Positions 20,252 through 30,688 of a stretch of DNA of 48,630 bases are shown piece by piece. A program made the position numbers and the translations under genes. Every line of letters begins with the position of its first letter. Position 1 is the stretch's first letter. This DNA comes from a virus. Under the pieces are notes generated by a model that saw nothing but the letters and a program-made list of their open reading frames with translations, was not told the origin of the DNA and did not search any database. The DNA is taken from positions 1 to 48,630 of the IMG/VR virus record IMGVR_UViG_3300021197_000355; one strand, written 5' to 3'.

Positions 20252-20414
20252 TTGTCCACTTACTCCTTGCTTCTTCAAGAGCTAGATTAAACTCTGCGTT
20301 GTCTGCTAGAAAATCCAAGAGGTCTGCTAACTCCTCGGCATAGTCATCGTGTAAGCCACCCTCTCTAAAGATACTAGCCCACGTCCTGAATGTCTCAGGT
20401 GGTATCATTCTCAT
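20235..20414 (-). CDS. Small acidic protein, 59 aa
   Basis: Starts MRMIPPETFRTWASIFREGG and is followed by an acidic helix (DDYAEELADLLDFLADNAEF). ATGA overlap with the integrase stop and overlap with the next small gene support it as a real gene. No family recognised. Confidence 0.55.
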   Translation of the reverse strand: MRMIPPETFRTWASIFREGGLHDDYAEELADLLDFLADNAEFNLALEEARSKWTNERLH

Positions 20415-21295
20415 TCTCTTTCTCTCCTTTCTAGTGCAGACTTAGCTGCTTTCAAACTGAACTTGTTGTATGGGTTAAGGCTACTGACATTCTTATGTCC
20501 TGTCACAGATTGAATTGCAAGGTGGTCTACCTCACTCTCAATCATCTGGACAATAGCAGTCTTACGTAAGTCACCCACTTGTAGTTCATCAGGTAGCCCT
20601 GCAACAGCCTTAACTTCCCTGAGTGCATGAGTCATCTGAATAACTGTCATCGGTCTGTAGACTGTACCCTGTGGTCTGTGGTGGGGTACTACAAATGGTT
20701 GGAAACTCCAGTCCTGTTCCTGCTGTACTAACATTTCATATAGGTTGTCAGGGATAGGTAGTTCCACTGTAGCACCACGCTTGGTTTGAGTTATTGTTAC
20801 CTGCTTGTTCTCAAGGTCAACATCTTCCCATAACAAATTACGTATGTCAATAGGACGTTGACCCCACTCGTAACACATCAACACAATCAGCCCAATGTTT
20901 CTCCACTCAAACTTTGTGAAGGCTACGTCCAAGAACGATACGACTTGACTGTGTGTCCAAACGACAGACCGAGGGATGCTAACACGTTTCTTTACTCGTG
21001 CCATTGGGTTGTACGGTATGTAGTCCAACGACACTAGGTAGTTCATGAGTACGGAAAAGATACGAGCGCAGTGGTTGGCGTTAGAGGTTGAAGTTTCTAG
21101 CTCCCAGATATCATACATCTCAGTACACATAACGACATTGATATTCTTAATGCTGATGTTACCAAGTATCCTACCCATGACAGGCATTGAGCAGAACGAA
21201 TGCATCTTATTTTCGTAGCCCTTTTGGGAAGAAGCTGCGAGTGATGCAAACTGTCTGCTGTTTAAGTATCTTTCTGTTGCTGTTCTAAGTCTCAT
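20411..21295 (-). CDS. int: Tyrosine recombinase / integrase
   Basis: The 294-residue protein has an N-terminal SAM-like DNA-binding region (1-105) and a catalytic domain with Arg147 (GQRPIDI), Lys172 (TKRGA beta-hairpin), Arg244 (GDLRKTA), His267 (TGHKNV) and Tyr276 (NPYNKF). The His of the usual HxLR motif is Gly241 here. The enzyme would insert the phage into, or excise it from, the host chromosome. It follows a promoter with palindromic operators at 21315-21398 and is followed by two tiny genes. No attachment site could be identified from this sequence alone. Confidence 0.88.
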   Translation of the reverse strand: MRLRTATERYLNSRQFASLAASSQKGYENKMHSFCSMPVMGRILGNISIKNINVVMCTEMYDIWELETSTSNANHCARIFSVLMNYLVSLDYIPYNPMARVKKRVSIPRSVVWTHSQVVSFLDVAFTKFEWRNIGLIVLMCYEWGQRPIDIRNLLWEDVDLENKQVTITQTKRGATVELPIPDNLYEMLVQQEQDWSFQPFVVPHHRPQGTVYRPMTVIQMTHALREVKAVAGLPDELQVGDLRKTAIVQMIESEVDHLAIQSVTGHKNVSSLNPYNKFSLKAAKSALERRERE

Positions 21296-28417: not shown

Positions 28418-28445
28418 TTGACAGAAGGGGGTACTTTAGTATAAC
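28418..28445 (+). promoter_or_regulatory. Rightward promoter 1
   Basis: TTGACA (28418-28423), a 16-base spacer and TATAAC (28440-28445). A one-mismatch operator (TACTTTAGTA, 28432-28441) lies in the spacer, and a perfect one starts 9 bases after the -10, so a bound regulator would block this promoter. Confidence 0.65.
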
Positions 28446-28453
28446 ATAAGTAT

Positions 28454-28626: not shown

Positions 28627-28890
28627 ATGTCTAAACCAAAAATGTATTCTTCAGACAGAGTTCTGGAAGAATTTTACAGTGCACTAGCAAGTGAAGACGA
28701 AGGAAGACTTCGTAGAGTGCACATACCAAGATCAGATGTATTTTACGTAAGAGAAAAAATATATCAGGACACAGGCATCAAGTATACTTTAGATCGTGTA
28801 GAGAGAGCTATGTATCTGGAAGGAATGCTTGAGGCCCGTGATGTATTTGAACCTCATAGAAAGAGAAATTATGGCTCACACGATAATTGA
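28627..28890 (+). CDS. Hypothetical protein, 87 aa, first gene of the rightward arm
   Basis: Begins MSKPKMYSSDRVLEEFYSALASEDEGRLRRVHIPRSDVFYVREKI. The segment HIPRSDVFYVREKIYQDTGIKYTLDRVERAMYLEGML looks helical and may be a small winged or HTH-like fold, but this is weak. GGAG lies upstream for messages from promoter 1, while promoter 2 would make it leaderless. It overlaps the next gene. Confidence 0.6.
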   Translation: MSKPKMYSSDRVLEEFYSALASEDEGRLRRVHIPRSDVFYVREKIYQDTGIKYTLDRVERAMYLEGMLEARDVFEPHRKRNYGSHDN

Positions 28891-29089
28891 TGACTATAAG
28901 ATATTCCCAAGACTGATGATGTTAGTAGTAACTGTTCTAACTTATCAGTCAGTACATTGGTATATGTCTTTACCTGATCCTACTACTGGACAGGCTGGAC
29001 TTGTATCAGTGTGTATGGGTGCACTAACAGGTTGCTTCGGGATTTGGATGAACAAAGAAGCTAAAACAGACAGAGGTACTAAACAATGA
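28871..29089 (+). CDS. Small membrane protein (holin-like), 72 aa
   Basis: ATG at 28871 (MAHTIIDDYKIFPRLMMLVVTVLTYQSVHWYM) is preferred to the earlier in-frame start at 28829, which would overlap the upstream gene more. Two membrane helices are likely: about 13-28 and 44-60 (LVSVCMGALTGCFGIWM). A similar protein occurs in many marine phages just before lysis genes. With the holin at 29455 and the endolysin at 29843 nearby, a role in membrane permeabilisation or lysis timing is plausible. Confidence 0.65.
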   Translation: MAHTIIDDYKIFPRLMMLVVTVLTYQSVHWYMSLPDPTTGQAGLVSVCMGALTGCFGIWMNKEAKTDRGTKQ

Positions 29090-29442
29090 AAACTTTAACA
29101 CTAGCAGCAGCACTAACATTAGCTGCAACTACAGCCACTTCAGCAGATCTTTTTGGAGGACTGTCTGTAGATACAGAGACTCATGTCAGTTACACAACTG
29201 GTACTGAAACATGGGCAGCAAACTTTACTCCTTCTGTAGGTTGGGGTATGTATGGTCTTGATATGAGTGTAGCTACTACTGTAGACCTCATGGGACTGGA
29301 CGAAGATGAGATCTTTAACGGATTAGATTTTAAAGCGGAGTATGAACTCCTAAGTACAGGCATTATGACCTACGGCAAAGTATCTTCAGATGCAGACTTT
29401 AACTTTGGTAATGTAACTGTTGGTGCTAAACTTTCTTTTTAA
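29086..29442 (+). CDS. Exported outer-membrane beta-barrel-like protein, 118 aa
   Basis: The protein has a clear signal peptide (MKTLTLAAALTLAATTATSA, cleavage after Ala20). It continues with alternating polar/hydrophobic strands (THVSYTTGTETWAANFTPSVGWGMYGLDMSVATTV) and ends in an aromatic residue (VTVGAKLSF), the usual outer-membrane protein signature. At about 98 residues mature it could form only a small barrel or an oligomer. Placed among lysis genes and coupled by ATGA to the membrane protein upstream, it might alter the envelope late in infection or block superinfection. Both roles are inference. Confidence 0.6.
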   Translation: MKTLTLAAALTLAATTATSADLFGGLSVDTETHVSYTTGTETWAANFTPSVGWGMYGLDMSVATTVDLMGLDEDEIFNGLDFKAEYELLSTGIMTYGKVSSDADFNFGNVTVGAKLSF

Positions 29443-29454
29443 GGAGTAAAGCAA

Positions 29455-29841
29455 ATGATACAGGCATTAGTAGGACCGATAACTAGTTTAGTAGGAACTT
29501 GGCTCAATGGTAAAGTTGAAACAAAGGCTGCAGAAACTAAAGCAAAGGTTGCCAAAGCTGAAGCTGAAGCACAGATTATGCTCAGTCGTGCTACAAGTGA
29601 AGCTGACTGGGAAAAGATTATGGCACAAGGTAGCCAGAACTCTTGGAAAGACGAGTGGCTAACCATTCTGTTTTCTATTCCGTTGATCCTAGTCTTCGTT
29701 GGAGATTGGGGTAGAGATATTGTAGCCAGTGGTTTTGTAGCGTTGGAGACAATGCCTGACTGGTATCAGTATACCTTGGGTGTAATTGTAGCTGCCTCCT
29801 TTGGAGTACGTTCAGCTACCAAGTTTTTTGGAAAGAAATAA
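29455..29841 (+). CDS. Holin, GTA-type 3TM family
   Basis: The 128-residue protein has an N-terminal amphipathic/hydrophobic segment (IQALVGPITSLVGTWLNGKV), a charged Ala/Lys/Glu helix (about 20-60), then WKDEWLTILFSIPLILVFVGDWG and YTLGVIVAASFGVRSATKFF as membrane helices. This layout, including NSWKDEW, matches the holin family named after gene transfer agents of Rhodobacterales. It would form membrane lesions that release the endolysin, encoded 2 bases downstream. AAGGAG precedes the start. Confidence 0.8.
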   Translation: MIQALVGPITSLVGTWLNGKVETKAAETKAKVAKAEAEAQIMLSRATSEADWEKIMAQGSQNSWKDEWLTILFSIPLILVFVGDWGRDIVASGFVALETMPDWYQYTLGVIVAASFGVRSATKFFGKK

Positions 29842-29842
29842 G

Positions 29843-30295
29843 ATGTCGTTTAAACTAAGTGCAAGAAGTATTCGTAAACTTGAAGGTGTAGAGAAAGACC
29901 TAGTAGCAGTTGTTATGGATGCTATTACATTGACTAAGGTAGACTTTGGAGTTACCTTTGGCCTACGTACTTTAGAAGAACAGAAGAAGTTGTATGAGTC
30001 TGGTAGATCACAGACTATGAAAAGTAAACACCTAGATGGTCGTGCTGTAGACCTAGTTGCATACTTTGGTTCAGACATTTCGTGGGAACTAAATGTATAT
30101 GATGATATCTGTGATGCAATGGCTGAAGCAGCTAGACGTAACAGTGTAGCAATCAAGTGGGGTGCAGCTTGGTCTGAGGGAGACATTCGTATGTATCAGG
30201 GTACAGCAGAAGATGCCATGAATGCATATGTAGATCTTCGTCGTTCCCAAGGTCGTAGACCCTTTATTGATGCTCCACACTTTGAAATGATTTGA
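29843..30295 (+). CDS. Endolysin, M15-family L-Ala-D-Glu peptidase
   Basis: The 150-residue protein has zinc-ligand motifs of the VanY/M15 family: SKHLDGRAVDL (His63, Asp70) and the C-terminal PHFE (His146). The layout is that of phage T5-type L-alanoyl-D-glutamate peptidases, which cut the peptide stem of peptidoglycan. There is no signal peptide, so export depends on the holin just upstream. The ATG at 29843 is preferred to an earlier in-frame start at 29801 inside the holin gene. Confidence 0.88.
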   Translation: MSFKLSARSIRKLEGVEKDLVAVVMDAITLTKVDFGVTFGLRTLEEQKKLYESGRSQTMKSKHLDGRAVDLVAYFGSDISWELNVYDDICDAMAEAARRNSVAIKWGAAWSEGDIRMYQGTAEDAMNAYVDLRRSQGRRPFIDAPHFEMI

Positions 30296-30382: not shown

Positions 30383-30688
30383 ATGGCAATGACTCAAGCA
30401 GAGAAACGTAAGGCAGCAGTAAAGCGTGCTCGTGTTTCTGGAATAAACAAACCTAAGCGTACTCCTGACCACCCTAAGAAATCTCATATTGTTGTTACAA
30501 CAAAACCAAATGGAGACCCTCTTACTATACGGTTTGGTGAAAAGGGTGCATCTACTGCAGGTAAACCTAAAACTGGTGAGTCTGATAAAATGAAAAAGAA
30601 GCGTGCAAGTTTTAAAGCTCGTCATAGCAAAAATATTAAGAAGGGTAAAACCTCTGCAGCTTATTGGGCGAATAAAGTAAAATGGTAA
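30383..30688 (+). CDS. Basic protein, DUF6321-like, 101 aa
   Basis: ATG at 30383 starts MAMTQAEKRKAAVKRARVSG; a GTG at 30332 is rejected because it lies at the base of a hairpin. The sequence INKPKRTPDHPKKSHIVV, IRFGEKGAST and SFKARHSKNIKKGKTSAAYWANKVKW is a conserved pattern in marine phages and algal viruses that I believe is annotated DUF6321. It is strongly basic and probably binds nucleic acid. Its function is not known. Confidence 0.65.
   Translation: MAMTQAEKRKAAVKRARVSGINKPKRTPDHPKKSHIVVTTKPNGDPLTIRFGEKGASTAGKPKTGESDKMKKKRASFKARHSKNIKKGKTSAAYWANKVKW

Follow-up and report, generated by a model that had tools for sequence, protein, structure and literature searches.

Gene organization of the locus

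The window, that is, the whole stretch of 48,630 bases analysed here (a record that may be incomplete), represents an HMO-2011-type podovirus, with terminase and portal genes ~75% identical to those of Roseobacter phage CRP-9. It also encodes a DNA polymerase, a primase/helicase, a ribonucleotide reductase, an integrase and head genes. Given the tyrosine integrase gene, which is located at 20411-21295 on the minus strand, the phage may be temperate.

The gene of interest (29086-29442) is predicted to encode an exported protein of the outer-membrane type. It is part of a plus-strand block running from genes for an 87-amino-acid protein and a small membrane protein, through the gene itself, to those for a PHROG 2524 membrane protein, an M15-type endolysin, small basic proteins and the terminase. 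The block is preceded by a sigma-70-like promoter match (28418-28447, plus strand, 10/12), of a kind expected by chance in this region. Its first gene, encoding the 87-amino-acid protein (28627-28890), is conserved in HMO-2011-type phages including CRP-9, and the next encodes the small membrane protein (28871-29089; 72 amino acids; PHROG 10198, no assigned function). Downstream of the gene lie the PHROG 2524 membrane protein (29455-29841; 128 amino acids), the endolysin, identified by a family match as peptidase M15-like (29843-30295; PHROG 465), and a small basic protein (30383-30688; PHROG 7595); CRP-9 has a u-spanin-like gene between the latter two, which the window lacks. A sequence-only reading of this DNA had placed the gene between a small membrane protein and the holin; the order agrees with ours, with the qualification that PHROG 2524 has no assigned function and its member here is a holin candidate by position only.

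The stop codon of the small membrane protein gene overlaps the start codon of the gene of interest (ATGA). In related loci such as L049 and L098 the same overlap joins the small membrane protein gene to the PHROG 2524 gene. Since the same junction is occupied by the additional gene in the window, the gene is, judging from this comparison, a precise single-gene, moron-like insertion at the ATGA that otherwise links the two membrane-protein genes.

The encoded polypeptide

The gene has an ATG start and encodes a polypeptide of 118 amino acids. Inspection of the sequence and the family alignment indicated a signal peptide at residues 1-20 (MKTLTLAAALTLAATTATSA, followed by D; 29086-29145) with a predicted cleavage site after ATSA (A20), which points to export via the Sec system. 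The mature part (residues 21-118; 29146-29439) comprises 98 residues with six predicted strands and ends in VTVGAKLSF. The terminal F118 corresponds to a C-terminal aromatic beta signal, and its column is invariant in an alignment of 84 sequences. More than 110 distinct family sequences retain both the signal peptide and the C-terminal Phe, so that the signal peptide, alternating beta strands and final Phe noted in the sequence-only reading are all present, the first and last of them across the family. Close relatives gave dN/dS values of 0.10-0.29 over the whole gene, and the gene is therefore real and under purifying selection.

The mature protein is acidic, with a pI of ~4 (family median net charge -6), and contains neither a lipobox nor a membrane helix. 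A LAAC lipobox is found in the signal peptide of two relatives (L055:1387-1764 and L070:8001-8375), which suggests a lipid-anchored version of the family protein.

Predicted structure

The beta-periodic hydrophobic moment of the window protein was raised relative to shuffles of the same composition (z 3.4; matched by 0.24% of 5,000 composition shuffles; family median z 3.8), and helical periodicity was not (z -1.0 at 100 degrees). In the six predicted strands, charged residues account for 0 of 34 positions on the hydrophobic face and 10 of 34 on the polar face; across the family, the number on the hydrophobic face has a median of 0 and a maximum of 2. AlphaFold2 modelling based on the 84-sequence alignment, which includes a distant subfamily described below, resulted in six antiparallel strands (mature residues 6-17, 22-35, 38-47, 57-68, 73-81 and 87-96) with a pLDDT of 85.3 and a pTM of 0.69; an earlier model with 55 sequences was poor, all-beta and had a pLDDT of 52, the rise from 52 to 85 being reached only after more sequences and the distant subfamily had been added. 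A structure with strands had been anticipated from the sequence, and the model bears this out as a predicted amphipathic sheet with an uncharged hydrophobic face.

Longer loops alternate with short turns in the window protein, as in outer-membrane proteins, and the outward-facing end of the model was assigned from the terminal Phe and the turn lengths. Conserved family positions include Y16, T18, E21, W23, D47, F57, G59, Y66, Y76, D82, D84, F87 and F98, many of them at or beside the presumed outer loops. Two of these loops, 1 and 3, belong to the best-conserved parts of the protein.

Foldseek searches with the model gave weak best E-values (0.027 in PDB, 0.008 in BFVD). The top-ranked VIA-align matches were mainly outer-membrane porins and mitochondrial barrels, with Omp33 at Z 8.5, although according to the tool's own warning values of Z 7 to 8.5 may reflect merely a shared arrangement. 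The model superimposed on VhGalP with 2.3 A over 90 residues and on the last strands of the Rhodobacter blastica porin with 2.6 A over 87 residues. This close fit to parts of much larger barrels indicates a gently curved sheet, open at both edges, and suggests an open half-barrel and hence an oligomer. The smallest monomeric outer-membrane barrels have eight strands; with six strands in 98 residues, a single chain is probably a half-barrel that would need partners for barrel closure, and the model makes it plausible that several chains assemble into a larger barrel.

Based on the signal peptide, the amphipathic six-strand pattern, the terminal Phe and the porin half-barrel matches of the model, the window protein is probably an amphipathic sheet of six strands located in the outer membrane of the host. 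The same features favour the small outer-membrane protein proposed in the sequence-only reading, except that a single chain would probably not close a barrel.

Distribution of the family and its gene neighbours

Homologs were identified in IMG/VR by one protein query followed by three alignment queries, giving 111 distinct relatives with identities down to ~40%; there is some redundancy among their loci, many of which are fragmentary. Family members occur in two phage types, HMO-2011-like podoviruses and contigs that we term T4-like from their gene content and size. One further member was found in a metagenome bin assigned to Rhodobacteraceae, on a contig (L089) whose cell-wall hydrolase and exported genes are those also present in the T4-like viral contigs. 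A host origin of the gene was considered and rejected: only the L089 contig itself matched among 295 genomes of the taxonomic family to which the L089 genome belongs.

The same bin contained a second, weak match, which led to a distant phage subfamily (L262-L277) of 112-113 amino acids, with a signal peptide, a C-terminal half and a terminal F as in the window family. Its members share 24-28% identity with the window protein, and profile comparison between the two groups gave a probability of 95.6-97.2%. The neighbour of the L262 gene encodes a PHROG 8198 protein (no assigned function).

No model in Pfam, PHROG, NCBIfam or PADLOC covers the family. Neither the window protein nor any of 54 relatives matched a Pfam-A model at E 1, and the PADLOC-DB defence and exclusion models did not match the family at E 1. 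Matches of the window protein to PHROG 5474 (E 0.17) and to OMP_b-brl, PF13505 (E 0.31), were insignificant and were discarded. Searches of 50,697 named phage records with four family members and the L262 protein revealed no match, and no family match was found in plasmids. Based on these searches, the family is widespread and has no counterpart in the libraries of protein families or the named phage records that we examined.

A small exported protein family with four conserved Cys residues, unmatched in Pfam and PHROGs (L020:7803-7991, L201:2603-2794, L216:8873-9112 and, on the minus strand, L011:8880-9065), adjoins the outer-membrane gene upstream or downstream in 104 of 191 loci (a redundant set) in both phage types. 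An obligate partnership was rejected, with the four-Cys protein absent beside the window gene and present without the outer-membrane gene in CRP-9 and HMO-2011; judged by its distribution, it often lies beside the outer-membrane gene without being an obligate partner.

Further observations concern the T4-like contigs. Runs of exported proteins with no assigned function lie downstream of the gene (L055:2617-4988, L078:9629-11009, L089:7722-9146 and L212:9730-10635), which we take to resemble pelagiphage curli-like genes. Directly upstream of the gene, ~10 loci encode a protein of 76-78 amino acids with two membrane helices (for example, L074:7734-7970 and L216:7670-7900), possibly a holin. Three kinds of T4-like contigs (L070/L071/L225, L082/L083 and L211) have, within 0.5 kb of the gene, a gene assigned as pstS-like by sequence motif and inspection (L070:6708-7679, L082:8430-9413 on the minus strand and L211:83-751).

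Proposed function

The reading that we tentatively favour is that of an exported late protein of the outer membrane, which would self-assemble into a small barrel and alter the outer-membrane permeability of the infected cell. The accessory protein would probably be expressed late, as its gene position suggests, exported via Sec by means of its signal peptide and inserted into the host outer membrane as the amphipathic six-stranded sheet predicted from sequence and model. There it would most likely self-assemble into a small barrel, and as a channel it might change the permeability of the outer membrane, for example for solute uptake during virion production.

This role gains support from the pstS-like neighbours in T4-like contigs, which echo the pstS genes adjoining the gene for the cyanophage protein Phage_OMP (PF24653, also DUF680; compared below) in P-SSM5 and S-TIM5. 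A role of DUF680 in phosphate limitation has been suggested (PMC6224464). In S-TIM4 populations evolved on Synechococcus WH8102, the DUF680 gene was mutated in essentially all phages, many of the mutations being disruptive; the protein was repeatedly lost during evolution under nutrient-replete conditions (PMC6224464). Against it, no pstS or other uptake gene was found near the podovirus copies, including that in the window; a function in lysis or late at the cell surface would account at least equally well for the position by endolysin genes, which is shared by two phage types; the Foldseek E-values given above are weak; and the link to Phage_OMP consists of a fold and a weak profile match. 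The acidic polar face argues against an anion (phosphate) pore and, if the window protein is a pore, favours a cation pore.

A more specific version, which we regard as rather doubtful, is that the family represents virus-only six-stranded half-barrels of which two or three identical chains would form a transmembrane outer-membrane barrel, spread as a single-gene cassette across unrelated marine phage types and changing the envelope late in infection. HMO-2011-type phages are a dominant and broadly distributed group of marine viruses (PMC9038755). A previously undescribed outer-membrane protein family shared by these phages and the T4-like contigs would imply a phage-altered outer membrane in many infected marine bacteria; the small size of the protein makes its location, assembly and channel activity directly testable.

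An unlikely alternative to altered permeability is receptor shielding or superinfection exclusion, in which the outer-membrane protein would block the adsorption of further phages or shield released virions from debris. The outer-membrane signature, the accessory single-gene insertion, the lipobox variants L055 and L070 and the integrase in the window, by which lysogeny is possible, are consistent with this, and exclusion factors of the outer membrane are known in phi80/N15 Cor, which is linked to FhuA (PMC11436027), and in T5 Llp (PMC9586334). However, conservation is high in the two loops 1 and 3, which presumably face outwards, whereas a blocker matched to receptors would be expected to vary, and the gene lies in a late block and not in an early or prophage-expressed position. 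Moreover, Llp and Cor are small lipoproteins and not six-strand sheets.

Relation to lysis genes and spanins

The association of the gene with endolysin genes recurs, by gene order, in two phage types. In HMO-2011-type phages several gene orders place it no more than ~2.5 kb from the endolysin gene, including after the endolysin or ~1.5 kb ahead of the lysis genes in some of them, and in 28 T4-like loci it is found ~0.9 kb (median) downstream of a different, unrelated cell-wall hydrolase, Hydrolase_2 (PF07486). These positions speak for a lysis helper that would act late with holin and endolysin, weaken the outer membrane for complete lysis and replace spanins where there are none, a role that we consider quite unlikely.

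No spanin was recognised in the window, in agreement with the sequence-only reading, which had reported no classical pair. In CRP-9 (gp70, annotated 'hypothetical') and many relatives, a u-spanin-like lipoprotein with a C-terminal membrane helix is encoded, located beside the endolysin in HMO-2011-type phages (L011:9420-9794 on the minus strand, L201:1605-1991, L208, L250 and others). It scored 42 bits against spanin2_3, which is below the cut-off, and the L201 copy matched the PHROG Rz-like spanin with E 1.7e-4; based on these matches the gp70 family is likely a u-spanin.

Among 61 non-redundant lysis loci, both genes were present in 13, the outer-membrane gene alone in 28 (the window and 27 further loci, which would suit a lysis helper) and neither in 20. 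The coexistence of the two genes (13 of the 41 loci with the outer-membrane gene) rules out a general replacement of spanins by the window protein. In addition, the u-spanin-like gene was missing from all 20 HMO-2011-type loci that lack the outer-membrane gene, so that the gene cannot be predicted from a missing spanin, and CRP-9 has the u-spanin-like gene without the outer-membrane gene. The cyanophage counterpart, moreover, is found with psbA, hli or pstS and not with lysis genes. Spanin features (a lipobox and/or membrane helix, and a periplasm-spanning part) were not found in the window protein, and a cationic disruptin-like peptide is ruled out by the mature pI of ~4. We conclude that the gene is an accessory one, which the lysis cassette does not require, and that it encodes no spanin. 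The earlier proposal of a lysis-cassette member in place of spanins is thus not upheld, with the gene moving around near endolysin genes in unrelated phages as well.

Finally, it is improbable that the window protein is a soluble periplasmic beta protein, with a binding fold like that of lipocalins or avidin, or that it is associated with the virion. In favour of this, small soluble barrels show the same alternation of hydrophobic with polar residues, the model also matches the folds of avidin, nitrobindin and VtrC (Z 6.5-6.7) and a DUF680 peptide was detected in a cyanophage virion preparation (PMC9146016). Against it, outer-membrane and mitochondrial barrels dominate the matches and rank first, the family retains the terminal Phe, turns and loops alternate as in outer-membrane proteins, a role in the virion is unlikely for a protein with a signal peptide and DUF680 was classed as non-structural in the S-TIM4 work (PMC6224464).

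Comparison with other small envelope proteins

Proteins of the Ail/Lom group (lambda Lom, Ail and OmpX type) are likewise small, phage- or host-encoded and located in the outer membrane. They have eight strands and ~150 residues, and the Ail/Lom model of Pfam-A did not match the window protein at E 1. T5 Llp and phi80 Cor resemble the window protein as small phage-encoded outer-membrane proteins that act on the surface of the infected cell, in their case on FhuA, with no sequence link to it. The CRP-9 gp70 family shares with the window protein that it is a phage envelope protein encoded near the same endolysin gene; it differs in its lipobox and C-terminal membrane helix, is absent from the window and coexists with the outer-membrane gene in other phages.

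The nearest named family is Phage_OMP (PF24653; DUF680, T4-GC 241, PhCOG173, syn9 gp222), the cyanophage outer membrane protein like beta barrel, which was reached through the BFVD matches of the model (member Q6SL64, whose predicted fold is similar; TM 0.54/0.48, prob 1.00). Its members are of ~120 amino acids, acidic and encoded by accessory genes of marine phages, and the window protein shares their architecture of signal peptide, ~98 mature residues, beta strands and terminal aromatic residue (F in both families). The PF24653 model (cut-off 27 bits) matched neither the window protein nor the 54 relatives at E 1, and a search of 10 complete records at E 10 was likewise negative; the true member P-SSM4 188, used as a positive control, scored 136 bits. 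Comparison of the family profile with that of PF24653 resulted in a probability of 61% and an E-value of 8e-5 (for a single comparison) over 41 columns covering the last three strands, with a score of 29.4, where the highest score among 120 column shuffles was 17.1 and reversed controls stayed below 1%. This is suggestive of remote homology over the last three strands only, and we regard the window protein as a small phage outer-membrane protein of the Phage_OMP kind, not as a member of PF24653.

Phage_OMP is common in cyanophages: the protein of one member matched 462 phage records, and DUF680 is present in 15 of 16 T4-like cyanophages (PMC3037559). Its gene neighbours are psbA, hli, pstS or nrdC, in contrast to the endolysin genes near members of the window family. 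With such a family in cyanophages, the window protein is less unusual than the sequence-only reading had supposed, and the two families together would represent a recurring, little-studied viral strategy.
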